DNA from: Paracidobacterium acidisoli
GTDB lineage: Bacteria > Acidobacteriota > Terriglobia > Terriglobales > Acidobacteriaceae
DNA length: 64,000 nucleotides
Direction: 5' to 3'
NCBI RefSeq assembly: GCF_003428625.2
Contig: NZ_QVQT02000004.1
Coordinates: 372,001 to 436,000, forward strand
Both the position numbers and the translations under genes were made by a program. This document shows positions 36,379 through 44,201 of the stretch, piece by piece. Numbering within the stretch: the stretch's first letter is position 1; each line of letters begins with the position of its first letter. Below the pieces are notes generated by a model, which saw nothing but the letters and a program-made list of their open reading frames with translations, searched no databases and was not told the origin of the DNA.

Positions 36379-37338
36379 TTAGGCTGGTGAGCTATCAGGG
36401 GCTTCGAGCTCGGAGGCAAGCCACTCCATGATTTGTCCGGCTATTAAAAGATTATCGCCGAAGCCCTGAAACCAGTGAACATCGGGCTCTTTGCGGAACC
36501 AGGTCAGCTGGCGTTTTGCGTAATTGCGATGACCCTGCTGCGCGTGGGAGATGGCATCGGAAAGAGAGAGTTCGCCGCGCAGAACGGCCCGCGCCTGGCG
36601 ATAGCCGAGGGAATCAAAGGCGCGGGGCGCGTCGCCATATCGGGCAACGAGGCTGCGGGTTTCTTCGATCAGTCCGCCGGAAAATTCAGCGGAAAACATC
36701 TGTGCGGCGCGTGTATTGATGCGCTCGTAGAGCTGTCGTCTTGGAGGATTGAGACCGATGCGAAGAATACGATAGCCGGTCAGTGGATCGCGCCCTGCCT
36801 GCCACGCCTCGGTGATTGGCTCACGCCCGGCGAGACAGACTTCAATGGCGCGAATGAGCTTCGGCGTATCGTTTGCGTGGATGCGCTGCGCGGCTTTCGC
36901 GTCAAGGCGCATCAGCAGTCGATGCAGCCATCCGGCGCCCCGACGTTCAGCACTGTGCTGAAGTCGGAATCGGATTTCCACGGAGCGCTGCGGTCCCGCG
37001 AAGAGACCGTCGAGAAGCGCGCGAAGATAAAGGCCCGTCCCTCCGGTGACGACAGGCAGTCTTCCCCGGCTGGTAATGTCGGCAATGGCCTCACGCGCCA
37101 GCCGGCTATAGTCGCCGGCGGTGGAGTGCTCGTCCGGGGCATAGATATCGATCAGGTGATGCGGCACGCTCTGGCGTTCGGCAAGAGTGGGCTTGGCAGT
37201 ACCGTTTTCCATCTCGCGGTAGACGGCAACCGAATCACAGCTGACGATCTCTCCATTGAAATGTCTGGCCAGATTCAGAGAAAGTGCTGTCTTGCCGCTG
37301 GCCGTGGGTCCGAGCAGGACGACGAGAGGTCTATCCAT
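36379..37338 (-). CDS. miaA: tRNA dimethylallyltransferase
   Basis: A 319-residue enzyme. The P-loop GPTASGKTALS is at residues 10-20. VSCDSVAVYREM carries the catalytic Asp, the DMAPP/tRNA region contains HHLIDI, and VTGGTGLYLRALLDGLF is also present. Near the end, ISHAQQGHRNYAKRQLTWFRKE matches the family core. It transfers dimethylallyl to A37 of tRNAs reading UNN codons. ATG 37338 begins the strand before the P-loop. It stands alone between the SDR and the his region. Confidence 0.95.
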   Translation of the reverse strand: MDRPLVVLLGPTASGKTALSLNLARHFNGEIVSCDSVAVYREMENGTAKPTLAERQSVPHHLIDIYAPDEHSTAGDYSRLAREAIADITSRGRLPVVTGGTGLYLRALLDGLFAGPQRSVEIRFRLQHSAERRGAGWLHRLLMRLDAKAAQRIHANDTPKLIRAIEVCLAGREPITEAWQAGRDPLTGYRILRIGLNPPRRQLYERINTRAAQMFSAEFSGGLIEETRSLVARYGDAPRAFDSLGYRQARAVLRGELSLSDAISHAQQGHRNYAKRQLTWFRKEPDVHWFQGFGDNLLIAGQIMEWLASELEAPDSSPA

Positions 37339-37777
37339 GGAATTATGTCGCCGGTTTCAGGCTAACAAAGACAAAGCTGGACAAAAAGGTTTCCTGAAGG
37401 TCACGCGGGCCTGAGGGTTTGCCTCAGGCCCGGACACAACGAGAAAACAGCAGGGATGAAAAGTTTCCGCCAGCCATGCAGTAATAAGCCGAGAAATGCA
37501 GGCTCCTCGGAGCGGCCGGCCTCAAACTTACTGTCGCGAGCCAGTGCTCTGTTCTGCGCACATGTATTCGCGATACACACAGAATTACGCACAGAATGAA
37601 TTCAGCGAATAGCACTCCAGCCGCTTTGGAAATACTTTTGAGGATAATCTGATAACACAGACGGGTGAGCGGAGAATACCTTTAAACGGGCTGGCGCTTC
37701 ATCGTAGGTACACTATAGAAGCGCAGTTAAATATGCGGATTTCGCACATCGGTCTCTTTTCCTCTGTTGTCAGGGAG
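37339..37777. other. Intergenic region between miaA and the his promoter
   Basis: About 440 bases without a gene. At 37406-37432 CGGGCCTGAGG-GTTTG-CCTCAGGCCCG forms a perfect 11-bp stem without a T-run, placed upstream of miaA. TGTAT-TCGCG-ATACA near 37563 is a second short inverted repeat. The right part is AT-richer and leads into the his promoter. No ORF longer than about 60 codons with a sensible start or composition was seen. Confidence 0.4.
37406..37432. repeat. Perfect 11-bp inverted repeat (stem-loop)
   Basis: The 11-bp arms are exact reverse complements around a GTTTG loop. There is no T-run on either strand, and no gene ends here (miaA starts 68 bases to the left on the other strand). 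It may be a remnant terminator of a lost gene or a structured untranslated element of miaA mRNA. Confidence 0.6.
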
Positions 37778-37805
37778 TTGACAGGCGAAAGGCAGAGCGG
37801 ATAAC
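37778..37805 (+). promoter_or_regulatory. Candidate promoter of the his operon
   Basis: TTGACA (37778-37783) matches the -35 consensus fully. GATAAC (37800-37805), after a 16-base spacer, matches four of six -10 bases. Transcription would start near 37812, just ahead of the leader peptide. Spacing is acceptable but the -10 is imperfect. An alternative -10 (TAACGT, 18-base spacer) is weaker. Confidence 0.55.
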
Positions 37806-37816
37806 GTTGCTGACAG

Positions 37817-37897
37817 ATGCAGATTCGCATGCACCACCGCCATCACCACCATCATCACGTGATGAACGTGCCAGCGAACTTCTGCAGCCCGAGATAG
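37817..37897 (+). CDS. hisL: Histidine operon leader peptide
   Basis: A 26-residue peptide, MQIRMHHRHHHHHHVMNVPA plus FCSPR-type tail, ending at TAG 37895-37897. Eight of the nine codons at 37832-37858 encode histidine. This resembles the enteric HisL peptide, in which ribosome stalling at His codons when charged tRNA-His is scarce controls termination. It lies 97 bases upstream of hisI, between a TTGACA promoter and a hairpin/T-run. ATG 37829, in the same frame, could be the real start. The reading as a leader peptide rests on composition and position; there is no SD sequence of note. Confidence 0.82.
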   Translation: MQIRMHHRHHHHHHVMNVPANFCSPR

Positions 37898-37923
37898 CAA
37901 CAGCCAATTCGAGGATTTCGCAG

Positions 37924-37958
37924 AGCCTGCCGGCGCGAACAGCACTGGCGGGCTTTTT
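37924..37958 (+). terminator. Attenuator terminator upstream of hisI
   Basis: AGCCTGCCGG pairs with CTGGCGGGCT (10 bp with two G-U pairs) around an 11-base loop, followed by TTTT. It lies 26 bases after the leader stop and 36 bases before hisI. TGCCAG at 37869-37874, inside the leader frame just after the His codons, is complementary (one G-U) to CTGGCG at 37945-37950 in the 3' arm. It could form an antiterminator when the ribosome stalls. That pairing is by eye and not folded. Confidence 0.75.
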
Positions 37959-37993
37959 GCATTTTCAGGCAATTCGCAAAAGGATAGTGGGAG

Positions 37994-38350
37994 ATGACCG
38001 AGATCAGGATCGACTTCGCAAAGATGGATGGACTGACGCCAGGCATCGTGCAGCACGCACGGACCGGCCAGGTGCTGATGACCGGCTTTCTGAATGAGGA
38101 AAGCTATCGCAAAACGCTCGAAACCGGCTTCGTCACATTCTGGAGCCGCACCCGGCAGAAGTTGTGGATGAAGGGCGAAACCAGTGGAAATCGTCTGCGT
38201 GTGGTGGAAGCGCTGACCGACTGTGACCAGGATACCCTGCTCTTTCGTGTCGAGGTGGAAGGGGATGGCCTGGTGTGCCACGAGGGTACTGTGAGCTGTT
38301 TTACGCGCCCGATTGCGCTGCAGGCACCGGCAGCGGAGGTGCAGGCATGA
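37994..38350 (+). CDS. hisI: Phosphoribosyl-AMP cyclohydrolase
   Basis: A 118-residue monofunctional cyclohydrolase. [18 protein letters not shown] and the metal/active segment [15 protein letters not shown] with the following cysteine ([12 protein letters not shown]) match the family. It opens the purine ring of phosphoribosyl-AMP in step 3 of histidine synthesis. Unlike the enteric fused HisIE it lacks the HisE domain, and no hisE gene is present in the window. It is the first structural gene; its stop overlaps the hisG start (ATGA). Confidence 0.94.
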
Positions 38351-39222
38351 GCCAGAAAATCCGTCTCGGCATTCCCAAGGGCAGCCTGCAGGACGCAACG
38401 ATAGCTCTGTTTGAGCGTGCCGGTTGGCGCATCTACGCCAATGGCCGCTCCTATTTTCCGACCATCGACGATCCGGAGATTGAGTGCATGTTGATTCGCG
38501 CGCAGGAGATGGCGCGCTATGTCGATCACGGCGTGCTGGATACGGGCCTGACCGGCATCGATTGGGTAATCGAAAGTGGTCTGGATGTCGAGAGCGTGAC
38601 CAGCCTTGTGTATTCCAAGCAAAGCCGTAAAGGCGTGCGCTGGGTGCTGGCTGTCCCGGAAGATTCTCCTTATCAGCGCGCCGAGGATCTGAGCGGGAAG
38701 ATCATCGCGACAGAATTGGTGGAAGTAACGAAGCGCTATTTTGCGCAGAAGAATGTCCCGGTCAAGGTGGAATTCAGCTGGGGCGCGACGGAAGTAAAGC
38801 CGCCCACACTGGCCGACGCCATTGTGGAAGTGACCGAGACGGGGAGCTCGTTGCGGGCCAATCGCCTGCGCATTATCGAAACGGTGCTGGAAAGCGAAAC
38901 GCGGCTGATTGCCAATCGCACGGCCTATAAAGACGAGTGGAAGAAGCAGAAAATCGACAGTCTGGCGCTGATGCTGAAGGGCGCGATTGCCGCTCAGGGT
39001 CAGGTTGGGCTGATGCTGAATGTGTCGAAGGAGAACCTGCCGACGGTGCTGTCGGTGCTGCCTGCACTCAACTCGCCGACCATTTCGGAGCTGAGCGATT
39101 CGAAGTGGGTCGCGGTCAACACGATTCTCGAAGAGAGCGTGGTGCGTGACGTGATTCCGCGCCTGAAAGCGGCACAGGCGACTGGAATCGTGGAATATCC
39201 GTTGAACAAGGTGGTGCTGTGA
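38347..39222 (+). CDS. hisG: ATP phosphoribosyltransferase (long form)
   Basis: A 291-residue long-form His[22 protein letters not shown] is the family N-terminus, [15 protein letters not shown] and [19 protein letters not shown] the phosphate-binding core. The C-terminal ACT-like regulatory domain (about 220-291) makes HisZ unnecessary. It catalyses the first, feedback-controlled step from ATP and PRPP. ATG 38347 overlaps the hisI stop, and its own stop overlaps hisD (GTGA). Confidence 0.96.
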
Positions 39223-40475
39223 AGCTGCTGCGCAGCGGAAGCAGTGCGGCTCGGGAGCGCCTGGATGCGCTCACCGACCGCCGCAATGCGGGCTATGAGC
39301 GCGCAATGCCTGTGGCCCGGCGCATCGTCGACAGTGTGCGTCGCGGTGGCGATGCGGCACTGCTGCGGCACCGCACAAAGCTCGACGGCATTTCGTCGCA
39401 GGTGCCGTTACGAGTCTCAGAAGACGAGATGCGTGCCGCATGGGAGGCCGGTTCAGCTGAAGTCAGAGCGGCGCTGAAGACGGCGGCCAAAAATATCCGC
39501 GCCTTTGCTGAGCGGCAGCGCCCGCGCGACTGGGATATGCGTCCCGCTCCGGGCGTAATGACCGGGCAGCGCGTAAAGCCGCTCGATGCGGTGGGCTGCT
39601 ACGTGCCGAGCGGCCGCTATCCGTTGCCTTCCACGTTGTTGATGACTGCGATCCCGGCGCAGGTTGCCGGGGTGCCGAGAATTGCCGCAGTGTCACCGCG
39701 GCCGGCGCGGGAGACGCTGGCAGCCGCGCACCTGCTGGGTGTGACGGAATTCTATCGCGTGGGCGGTGCGCAGGCTGTGGCGGCATTGGCCTATGGAACG
39801 GAGAGCCTGCCACGGGTAGACAAAATTGTTGGTCCCGGTAATGCCTACGTGACGGCGGCAAAGAAGCTCGTGGCCTTCGATTGCGGCATCGACATGCTGG
39901 CCGGGCCGACAGAGATCGTCGTGACCAGCGAAGCCGGCGACGCAGTCGCGATTGCGGCAGATCTGATTGCACAGGCAGAGCATGACCCGGACGCGGTGGC
40001 GATCCTTCTGACCAGCAATGCAGAGCTGGCAAAGGCAGTGGCGATCGAGGTCAGGCAAAGAGTCCGGAGCAATAAGATCGCGGCTGAAGCGATAGCGCGA
40101 AATGGCACAGTCGTTATCACTAAAACGCCGGAAGAGGCGCGTGAAATGACAAACCGGATCGCTCCGGAGCATCTGACGATCGACAGTGAAGCAGATCTTG
40201 CATGGGTACGCAATGCCGGATCAGTGTTCGTCGGGCACTTGTCGGCTCAGCCGCTTGGCGATTACGTCTCCGGACCAAACCATACGCTGCCGACCAGCGG
40301 CCTGGCGCGGCTGCGCGGAGGCCTGAGCGTGATGGATTTTGTGAAGCTGATTACAGTACAGCAATACAGCGCGGAAGGGATAAAGCGGCTCGGGCCTGCC
40401 GGGATCGTATTGGCGAAGGCCGAAGGTCTGATGGGCCATGCGGAAGCGATTCGCGCAAGGGGGATCGATGGCTGA
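39219..40475 (+). CDS. hisD: Histidinol dehydrogenase
   Basis: A 418-residue zinc enzyme. Diagnostic segments are [47 protein letters not shown] and AEHDPDAVA, plus the His in [32 protein letters not shown] is near the C-terminus. It oxidises histidinol to histidine in two NAD-dependent steps. GTG 39219 overlaps the hisG stop; the gene overlaps hisC by eight bases. Confidence 0.96.
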
Positions 40476-41562
40476 GGTAAAAGCAGCAGGGCCGATACTT
40501 TCCTCGACCGTGCGGCGCATGAAGGAATACCACCCGCCGTTAGGCGATCGCAGCGGCCTGCGGCTGGACTTCAATGAAAATACCTTTGCCTGCTCGCCGC
40601 GCGTGCTGGAAACGCTTGGACATATTTCGCGCGCGGATCTGACGAAATATCCTGAGCGTGAGCCGGTGGAGAGGCTGGTGGCGAAACATCTTGGGCTGGA
40701 GCCAGCGCAGGTCCTGCTGACGAACGGCGTGGATGAAGCCATTCATGTGCTGTGCCAGACGTATCTCGATGCCGGCAGTGAGTTGCTGCTGCCTGTCCCG
40801 ACGTATTCCATGTATGAAGTCTATGCATCGGGGACAGAAACGCGTGTGTTGCGGGTCCAGGCTGGTAATGACTTTGCGTTTCCCGTGCAGCAGGTGCTCG
40901 ATTCCATTACTCCGGCGACGAGGCTGATTGCGATTGCGAATCCCAATAGCCCGACGGGGCAGGCTGTGCGCCGCGAGGATCTGCTCGCCGTGATTGAGGC
41001 TGCCCCCCACGCGGCAGTGCTGTTGGACGAAGCATACTTCCATTTCTTTGGCGAAACCGCGATGGATCTGGTCGGCCGCGTGCCAAATGTAATTGTCGCG
41101 CGTACCTTTTCAAAGGCTTATGGACTCGCCGGGCTTCGCCTGGGTGTGCTGGCTGCCGCGGAAGAGCAGATGCAGTGGATGCGGCGCGCCATTTCGCCAT
41201 ACAGCGTGAACGCGCTGGCGCTGGCCTGCCTGCCGTCGGCGATCGAAGACAGTGCGTACCTTGACTGGTATGTCAGCGAAGTCTTGGCCTCCCGCACCCT
41301 GTTCGAATCTGCACTGACGCGACTGGATGTGCCGTACTGGCCGTCGCGTGCAAATTTTGTCCTCGCAAATATTGGTTCAAAGCATCAGGAGTTTGCCGCA
41401 GCGATGCGCAGACGCAATGTGCTGGTGCGGGATCGATCGAGCGATCCTGGCTGTGACGGGTGTGTGCGTATCACGGTAGGAACGCGCGAACATACCGAGC
41501 TGGGCATAGCGGCGCTTGAGGAATCGCTGCGAGAAATAGGCTGGATGAAAGGCGAAGCATGA
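40468..41562 (+). CDS. hisC: Histidinol-phosphate aminotransferase
   Basis: A 364-residue PLP aminotransferase. [16 protein letters not shown] is the family start, [10 protein letters not shown] and [12 protein letters not shown] are the PLP-contact motifs, and the PLP lysine is in [16 protein letters not shown]. It converts imidazole acetol phosphate to histidinol phosphate. ATG 40468 lies within the end of hisD; the stop overlaps hisB (ATGA). Confidence 0.94.
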
Positions 41563-42161
41563 AAAAGGCAGCAAAACGAACGGGCTCTATCGATCGCAAA
41601 ACAGCGGAGACCCAGATTTCTCTGAAGCTGACGATCGAGGGAGCGGGCCGTTACAAGGTATCGACGGGGATCAGATTTTTCGATCACATGCTCGAATTGT
41701 TTACGCGCCATGGTGCCTTCGACCTGGAGTTGACCTGCAAAGGTGACTTGGATGTAGACCAGCATCACACTGTGGAAGATGTGGGGATCGCGCTGGGCGA
41801 GGCCTTCGATAAGGCATTGGGCGATAAGCGCGGCATTCTGCGCGCGGGATATTTCCTGATGACGATGGACGAGACGCTGGGTATCGCTGCTGTCGATCTC
41901 AGTGGCCGCGTGGCATCGGTGATTGATACGAAGGTGAAGACGCGTCTGGTAGGCGATCTGCAGTCGGAGCTGGTAGACGATTTCTTTGAAGGGTTTTCGC
42001 GAGGCGCACGGGCAAATGTGCATGTAAAGACGATGTACGGCCGTTCAAATCATCACAAGGTCGAGGCACTGTTCAAGGCCTTCGCACGAGCGCTGCGCGT
42101 GGCGTGCTCGCGTGATCCGCAGCTTGGTGAGATGCTGCCCAGCACCAAAGGATTGCTGTAA
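41559..42161 (+). CDS. hisB: Imidazoleglycerol-phosphate dehydratase
   Basis: A 200-residue monofunctional dehydratase. Manganese-binding motifs are [35 protein letters not shown] and [18 protein letters not shown]. It has no histidinol-phosphatase domain, so that activity must come from a separate gene not in the window. It removes water from imidazoleglycerol phosphate. The stop overlaps the hisH start by one base (TAATG). Confidence 0.96.
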
Positions 42162-42769
42162 TGGGTGCTGGTGTGATCGCTGTCGTCGACTATAAAGCGG
42201 GTAACCTCACGTCGGTGATGAAGGCACTCCATGTGGCTGGAGCCAAAGCAGTACTCACCGAAGATCCAGATGTTGTCCGCCGAGCGGTGAAGATCGTCCT
42301 CCCCGGTGTCGGGCACTTTGCGGCGACTTCATTCCTGGCGGAGCACGGGCTGAAAGAGGCAATCGAGGAGCGGATTCGCGCCGGAGCACCTTTCCTCGGA
42401 ATCTGCGTGGGACTGCAGTGGCTGTTTGCAGGAAGTACGGAAGCGCCGGGGTATGAAGGACTGAGCACGTTTCCACAGCTTTGCGATCGTTTTGCCCCCG
42501 GGAAAAAAGTTCCACATGTCGGATGGAATTCACTCGCAATTCGTGAAGGATCGCAGCTCTTTGCCGGAATCGAAGATGGAAGCTTCGTATATTTCACTCA
42601 CTCTTATCGCGCTCCCGTAATCAACGAGACTGCCGCTGTGACAAATTATGATGAACCATTCACCGCTGCAGTGGAGCGCGGAAACGTGATGGGCGTACAG
42701 TTCCATCCCGAAAAATCAGGCGCGGCAGGTCTGCACTTGCTGGAGAACTTTGTGAGGCTGGCATGCTGA
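42161..42769 (+). CDS. hisH: Imidazole glycerol phosphate synthase, glutamine amidotransferase subunit
   Basis: A 202-residue class I amidotransferase. The nucleophile Cys is in [11 protein letters not shown], and the His and Glu of the triad are in [14 protein letters not shown]. It releases ammonia from glutamine and channels it to HisF. It directly precedes hisF with a 7-base overlap, which suits a 1:1 complex. Confidence 0.96.
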
Positions 42770-43524
42770 CGAAGCGCATTATTGCCTGTCTGGATGTAAA
42801 CGCTGGCCGCGTAGTCAAGGGCGTACAGTTCGTGGATCTGGTAGATGCCGGCGACCCGGCGGAGCTGGCAGCGCGGCACGCAGCAGCGGGTGCGGATGAG
42901 ATTGTGCTGCTCGATATCACCGCAACGCACGAGCGCCGCGGCACGCTTATCGATACGGTGCGCCGCACTGCACAGCGCCTTTTCGTTCCATTCACCGTCG
43001 GCGGAGGCATTCGCACCGCGGATGATGCCGGAGCAGTCTTCGATGCCGGAGCGGATAAGGTCAGCATCAACTCTGCCGCTTTAGCCCGTCCCGCTCTGAT
43101 TGGTGAGATCGGAGCGAAGTTCGGCGCGCAGGCCGTGATCGTTGCTATCGATGCGCGCCGCAAAGGAGAAAGCGCCGAAGTCTATATTGAAGGCGGACGA
43201 AAGCCGACAGGTCGTGGAGTGGTGGAGTGGGCACGTGAAGCCGAGGATCGCGGTGCCGGCGAGATTCTGCTGACCTCCATGGATGCAGACGGCACCCGTG
43301 CCGGTTTCGATTGTGAGATCACCGCCATGGTAGGCGAAGCTGTGCAGATTCCAGTGATTGCTTCCGGCGGTGCGGGTAACGCCGCGCACTTTACGCAGGT
43401 CTTCCGCGAGGGCAGGGCCGACGCGGCGCTTGCAGCAAGTATCTTCCACTTTGGGATATCGGATGCGCGCATGCTGAAGGAAGAGCTGGCAAAGGATGGA
43501 GTTCCAGTGAGGCTGCCATGTTAA
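42763..43524 (+). CDS. hisF: Imidazole glycerol phosphate synthase, cyclase subunit
   Basis: A 253-residue TIM barrel starting [20 protein letters not shown]; the Asp in CLDV is one catalytic acid, and the second is in [20 protein letters not shown] and [11 protein letters not shown] hold the phosphates. It cyclises PRFAR with ammonia from HisH to give IGP and AICAR. Here hisF precedes hisA, the reverse of the enteric B-H-A-F order. Confidence 0.96.
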
Positions 43525-44201
43525 TTCCTTCAATTGATCTGATGGGCGGACGTATTGTGCAGCTGGTGCGTGGTGAAAAGCTGAAGCTCGCCTTCGACGA
43601 TTTCGATTACTGGATCGAACGGTTCTCCTCATATCCCCTCGTTCAGCTTATTGATCTGGACGCAGCGATGCGGCAGGGAGAGAACACGGTGCTGATCGAG
43701 CAGATCGCGCGGCGGCTGCCCTGTCAGGTGGGCGGCGGCATCCGAACGGCGGAACAGGCGCAGAGACTGATCGATGCGGGAGCGAAACGCGTGATCTTTG
43801 GATCGGTGTTATTTCGCGCCGATGCTGTTTTGCCTGTGGATACGGAAATGGCAGCATCTCTGTCTGCGGTTTTGACCGCGGAACGAGTCGTCGCCAGTAT
43901 CGATACAAAGGGCGGTAAGGTTGCCATCCGTGGCTGGAAAGAGCAAACAGAGGTAACGCCGGAACAGGCGATTACCGCACTTGAGCCATATTGCAGTGCA
44001 TTTCTGTATACGCATGTGGATACAGAGGGCACAATGCAGGGGTTTCCACTGCCGGTGGCGCGGGAGCTGCGCGCTCTGACCCAGCGGCAGTTGATTGTCG
44101 CCGGAGGCATTCGCGAACAGGCAGAGATCGATGCGCTGGAAGCGATTGATGTCGACGCGGTTGCAGGTATGGCCGTGTACTCCGGCCTGCTGGCTACCTG
44201 A
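43518..44201 (+). CDS. hisA: Phosphoribosylformimino-AICAR-phosphate isomerase
   Basis: A 227-residue half-barrel pair related to His[18 protein letters not shown] has the first catalytic Asp, [17 protein letters not shown] the second, and [10 protein letters not shown] and [11 protein letters not shown] the phosphate loops. It isomerises ProFAR to PRFAR. It is slightly shorter than typical HisA (about 240). Last gene of the operon; its end overlaps a convergent small ORF by eight bases. Confidence 0.94.

Follow-up and report, generated by a model that had tools for sequence, protein, structure and literature searches.

The window analysed here, a 64,000-nucleotide stretch of the Paracidobacterium acidisoli genome, carries a his operon on its plus strand (37994-44201), and the region between this operon and its upstream neighbour holds a short open reading frame (ORF) with a run of histidine codons, preceded by a promoter element and followed by a hairpin with a T-run (Table 1). 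The genes downstream of this leader are those of histidine biosynthesis, and their NCBIfam matches agree with the order I-G-D-C-B-H-F-A given by a first-pass annotation of the sequence, with a HisA match below its curated cut-off (162.5 against 228.95 bits). The same annotation had described a TTGACA promoter element, a 26-codon frame with eight histidine codons in nine, a 10-bp hairpin plus T-run 26 bases past the stop codon and hisI shortly thereafter, and all of these can be read directly from the DNA; the hairpin has 10 pairs, two of them G-U, and a loop of 11 nt, and hisI begins 35 nt beyond the T-run. Its suggestion of an acidobacterial source was also sound, the relatives of HisI being Acidipila, Edaphobacter, Granulicella, Terriglobus and Terracidiphilus. 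The window's promoter and hairpin are both absent from the output of a generic promoter/terminator scan, which considers loops of 3-8 nt only.

Table 1. Features of the his leader and its surroundings, in positions of the window.
Feature	Position	Strand	Basis
miaA, upstream neighbour	36379-37338	-	NCBIfam match
-35 element TTGACA	37778..37783	+	read directly
Probable -10 element TAACGT; spacer 18, end 9 nt before leader ATG	37802..37807	+	TANNNT position in relatives
His leader peptide ORF, 26 codons; ATG 37817, stop TAG 37897; translation MQIRMHHRHHHHHHVMNVPANFCSPR (26 aa)	37817..37897	+	read directly; counterpart in 139/141 family loci
Region 1, TGCAGATTCGC, 5' arm of hairpin enclosing His codons	37818..37828	+	fold of window RNA
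Regulatory codons, 8 His in 9 codons	37832..37858	+	read directly
Region 2; antiterminator strand CGTGCCAGCG 37867-37876; 3' arm of hairpin 1:2 at 37874-37878 and 37881-37886	37867..37886	+
Region 3; terminator 5' arm 37924-37933; antiterminator partner TGCCGGCGCG 37928-37937	37924..37937	+
Terminator hairpin and T-run; arms 37924-37933 (AGCCTGCCGG) and 37945-37954 (CTGGCGGGCT)	37924-37958	+	read directly
Region 4; terminator 3' arm 37945-37954 and T-run 37954-37958	37945..37958	+	read directly, conservation, fold
hisI, first operon gene	37994..38350	+	NCBIfam NF000768, 131.7 bits against cut-off 126
hisG, hisD, hisC, hisB, hisH, hisF, hisA	38347..44201	+	NCBIfam matches

Within the family (Acidobacteriaceae), HisI was found in 70 of 100 genomes, at 72 places including the window's own. 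Sixty of the other 71 places were fetched with up to 1 kb of upstream sequence, the remaining 11 being left out, and a further 80 loci came with names (Acidipila, Edaphobacter, Granulicella, Terriglobus, Terracidiphilus, Silvibacterium and many MAGs), some genomes being common to both sets. Of the 141 family loci, window included, 139 have a His leader ahead of hisI, with 5-8 His in ten codons and a stop codon 63-206 nt before hisI; the two loci lacking a leader lie near contig ends, with only 48 and 138 nt of upstream sequence. The first-pass annotation had named the loss of the His run in relatives as grounds for abandoning its reading, and the relatives were found to have kept it. The family loci contain 127 distinct leader segments. 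A HisI match was absent in 30 of the 100 family genomes, 21 of which belong to the 74 genomes with a completeness of 90% or more and a contamination of 5% or less.

The His pattern CAYCAYNNNCAYCAYCAYCAYCAY occurs once in the 5.0-Mb genome of P. acidisoli, at the his leader, and the reversed-pattern control does not occur there. Across the family the pattern was found in 33 of 100 genomes, where it sits at his leaders, yet in several genomes it lies also or only away from the his operon; due to these matches, and to the presence of the control pattern in 5 of the 100, the pattern by itself is not specific. Tracts of this type away from the same genome's HisI place are located at G017:C1:1213167-1213193, G096:C42:7354-7383 and G042:C120:11139-11171. 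The His codons of the 127 family leaders comprise 535 CAT and 350 CAC, a mixture that would be expected if the amino acid, not the base, is kept, and the median run has 7 His. The zero differences at codon positions 1 and 2 arise by construction, as the rows were picked by amino acid, and are not used as evidence. Around trpE, ilvB and leuA in the P. acidisoli genome, no Trp-rich or Leu/Ile/Val-rich short ORF was found on the gene's strand within 1.5 kb on each side, a check in which the leuA match is under its cut-off and the genes are possibly not the first in their operons.

The RNA from 37814 to 37960 folds at -56.5 kcal/mol (z -4.17; none of 200 shuffles as stable) into two hairpins, one enclosing the His codons and the other the terminator. 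All 139 family leaders have a stem with a T-run between the leader stop codon and hisI, and 136 of these score above the best of 139 shuffled spacers. In the family, a GTGTCRGCGG-like segment after the His run (region 2) is complementary to the 5' arm of the terminator (region 3). In 121 of 127 leaders region 2 keeps the reading frame of the His run, and in 91 of the 127 it lies 9 nt past the final His codon. In the window, the 2:3 helix has 9 of 10 pairs, with an A-C mismatch at 37873/37931. For the pairing counts L062 and L153 were dropped, leaving 125 of the 127 rows, and across the ten pairs, in 103 distinct combinations, 89.5% are standard. Swapping region 3 between species lowers this to 84.8% (sd 0.5; maximum of 1000 swaps 86.2%), in a procedure that ignores relatedness, and sliding the two strands by -2 to +3 columns yields 31-54%. 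Pair 5 occurs as G-C in 62 of the distinct combinations, G-T in 22, A-T in 14 and a non-standard form in 5, and pair 7 as T-A in 42, C-G in 36, T-G in 13 and a non-standard form in 12. When covariation is judged on a HisI+HisG tree (102 of 107 rows), supported branches provide 4-6 independent comparisons per test, too few for significance; the partner changes the same way in 1.2-2.5 of these on average and the opposite way in 0-0.2, with no difference in the rest. A smaller HisI+HisG tree (61 of 66 rows) also offers too few independent comparisons, and many partners are unchanged, as G-U pairs allow.

The 1:2 duplex was assessed by pairing region 2 with the leader from 21 nt before the His run to the end of the run, and native combinations average -14.55 kcal/mol in the family compared to -13.52 for swapped ones (sd of 20 means 0.14). 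The predicted RNA layout is the classical 1:2 / 2:3 / 3:4 attenuator plan. Many family leaders have Arg or Gly in place of His at the third codon of the run (HHRHHHHH, HHGHHHHH), and the leaders of L218, L228 and L204 are grouped with these; such a codon may conceivably have a role in hairpin 1:2 or in the tuning of stalling.

The promoter is placed close to the leader start codon in most family leaders. TTGAC occurs 36-45 nt before the ATG and 16-19 nt from a TANNNT in 114 of the 127 leaders, an arrangement present in 1 of 2540 shuffled upstream sequences, and the -10 element ends 6-16 nt before the ATG in these 114 (8-10 nt in 95 of them). An SD-like 4-mer stands before the ATG in 12 of 127 leaders, compared to 75 of 113 for the ATG of hisI. 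As the -10 element ends so near the AUG and SD-like motifs are rare, the His leader ORF is probably leaderless or nearly so, and transcription in the window would be expected to start at about 37813-37815. By eye, many leaders of other acidobacterial families have a similar promoter-ATG spacing. In a survey of leaderless bacterial genes, such genes are marked by a TANNNT some 12 bp ahead of the start, and the 3 acidobacterial genomes included all had leaderless genes, at a mean of 13.3% of genes (PMC3160421).

In the phylum as a whole, 190 of 297 genomes have a HisI match, and 60 loci of other acidobacterial families, picked from the matches and not at random, were inspected. hisI stands directly before a long-form hisG in 27 of the 60, and a His leader precedes hisI in 26 of these 27, including the leader of L242 (4 His in 10), which was recognised by eye; in the exception, L222, the open frame extends up to hisI. 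The 26 leaders are spread over ten family codes besides that of the window, bringing the leader to eleven acidobacterial family codes. A clear GC stem with a T-run follows the leader in 24 of the 26; in the other two, L199 and L200, the His leader is followed by a GC-rich hairpin with no clear T-run, in which they differ from L235, a locus of the same family code. Duplexes were computed for 30 of the 31 non-family leaders provided, L199 being omitted for want of a terminator; among the 30, the more stable duplex is 2:3 in 27 and 2:4 in 3, and 2:3 beats shuffles at p<0.05 in 13 of the 30 only. His-rich short ORFs also occur before hisG in the hisG-first operons of one other family (L208:1415-1528, L214:3439-3597 and L216:16880-16981 on the minus strand), with a clear terminator only in L216, and about 1 kb before hisG in another (L218:2489-2602 and L228:16680-16781 on the minus strand). 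Two hairpins lie downstream of the ORFs in this latter family, and the L218 leader is followed by the gene of a HisZ relative, below its curated cut-off. For the remaining 28 of the 33 loci that are not of the hisI-hisG type, the scan gave no leader before a his gene, several of these stretches being without an operon start.

Three features of a leader-peptide attenuator were found at this locus: ahead of the operon, a short ORF, translated by prediction, in which codons for the amino acid that the operon produces form a run; a predicted intrinsic terminator between that ORF and the first gene; and a putative alternative antiterminator formed by the terminator 5' arm and the segment just past the control codons. 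We are confident that the element is a ribosome-mediated transcription attenuator of the his operon, a reading in which the computed parts, conservation, complementarity and folds would be joined to ribosome stalling, readthrough and a histidine response. The stalling mechanism of enteric his leaders, which the first-pass annotation had carried over to this locus, gains support from the conservation of the His run, of the terminator and of the position before hisI. Transcription would start almost at the leader AUG, and a ribosome would load on the near-leaderless RNA and translate the His run behind RNA polymerase. When charged tRNA-His is ample, the ribosome would run over region 2 to the stop codon; with region 2 covered or folded back on region 1, regions 3 and 4 would form the terminator and transcription would end near 37958. 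Under a shortage of charged tRNA-His, it would stall on the His codons, keeping hairpin 1:2 open and region 2 free to capture region 3 before region 4 is made, so that no terminator would form and hisIGDCBHFA would be transcribed.

Fold predictions for the family leaders are consistent with these steps. If the ribosome is placed on the first His codon and the RNA stops short of region 4, 2:3 forms with P>0.5 in 119 of 125 leaders; if the ribosome is placed at the stop codon, it is the terminator that forms, with P>0.5 in 125 of 125, and untranslated RNA also favours the terminator (median P 1.0). The first-pass annotation had suggested folding the RNA with part of the leader sequestered. In RNA that includes region 4, the equilibrium prediction is the terminator even when the ribosome is stalled (median P 0.99). 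For this reason the switch must be kinetic, with the choice made during transcription, as it is in attenuators in general.

Other readings of the same parts need to be weighed. The His-rich ORF could encode a small trans-acting protein, either metal binding or comparable to peTrpL of Sinorhizobium, which acts in trans according to PMC7298713, and the hairpin would then be the ordinary terminator of a short gene. This is very improbable given that the leader keeps its position before hisI within the family and beyond, and that the ORF itself contains region 2, whose complementarity to the terminator 5' arm is something a plain terminator does not need; a trans role of the leader peptide could, nonetheless, exist in addition to attenuation. 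Attenuation might also act at hisI translation or via Rho rather than an intrinsic terminator, for which the GC-rich hairpins of L199 and L200 speak, but the T-run stem that lies before hisI in the window as in each of the 139 family leaders, and the distance from the window's T-run to the hisI ATG, make this most unlikely. A His tract that lies by chance near a constitutive terminator is scarcely conceivable: the same His pattern does occur away from his operons in some family genomes, but the arrangement is conserved within and beyond the family and the pattern is found a single time in the P. acidisoli genome.

A different pairing within the attenuator was proposed by the first-pass annotation, in which TGCCAG, just after the His codons, would pair with the terminator 3' arm (2:4). 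The complementarity itself is there, as GCCAG matches CTGGC of that arm, and in the window 2:4 comes to -12.4 and 2:3 to -14.8 kcal/mol, the latter being the 13th weakest of 125. The conserved partner of region 2 is, however, the 5' arm, and 124 of 125 family leaders have a 2:3 duplex more stable than their 2:4 duplex (means -20.0 vs -12.1 kcal/mol), the exception being L129. The 2:4 pairing was rejected as the antiterminator, and we regard it as highly improbable.

With ribosome-mediated attenuation through 2:3 as the preferred reading, the textbook feedback switch very probably also works in the Acidobacteriota, where no description was found. No acidobacterial his leader appears among the literature matches listed, and an earlier prediction is possible in subscription literature (Lopatovskaya et al. 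2010, cited in PMC4833913). What is notable about the element is its predicted near-leaderless start and its spread through the phylum. We lean, by a modest degree, towards an old, phylum-wide, leaderless his attenuator that would be ancestral to the hisI-first acidobacterial lineages and independent in origin of the proteobacterial one, with an SD-less start on an AUG-initiated transcript; the hisG- and hisZ-first leaders (L208, L214, L216; L218, L228) would then derive from transfer or independent origin. If the attenuator is leaderless, ribosome and polymerase would be coupled from the first nucleotides, and a natural family of probably leaderless attenuators would offer a system for the study of ribosome-RNA polymerase coupling in the absence of a 5' UTR. 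Additionally, a regulatory element can now be annotated before many his operons that have none in Rfam terms.

Rfam provided nothing relevant, and RF00514 (His_leader) matches neither the window at gathering score nor 37700-38050 at E<=10; the element is predicted to work like a His leader but lies outside the RF00514 family. The E. coli trp attenuator follows a four-segment plan, and the same plan explains the acidobacterial leader data. The element resembles the enteric hisL attenuator in its His-run leader peptide, its mutually exclusive terminator and antiterminator and the his biosynthesis operon downstream. It differs in having region 1 as well as region 2 inside the leader ORF and a start that is probably near-leaderless, and in that the first gene is hisI, while the enteric his operon begins with hisG. 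In the Firmicutes, two reports describe predicted His leaders in the B. cereus group, Peptostreptococcaceae and Erysipelotrichales (2022, PMC9413887) and a hisS/hisZ leader in bacilli (2010, PMC2965389). These likewise combine a predicted leader with a terminator and antiterminator and have no RF00514 match, but they have three to five His in a row in scattered lineages, in contrast to the median of 7 and the eleven family codes of the Acidobacteriota. The 5' end of the Sinorhizobium meliloti trpL attenuator RNA (rnTrpL/peTrpL) is located at the leader AUG, as is probably nearly the case here, though in that leader Trp takes the place of His and the 5' end is reported (PMC7298713), whereas the acidobacterial leader carries His codons and its 5' end is predicted from promoter position. 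As every single feature has a precedent, the acidobacterial leader extends a known kind of attenuator and does not found a new one.
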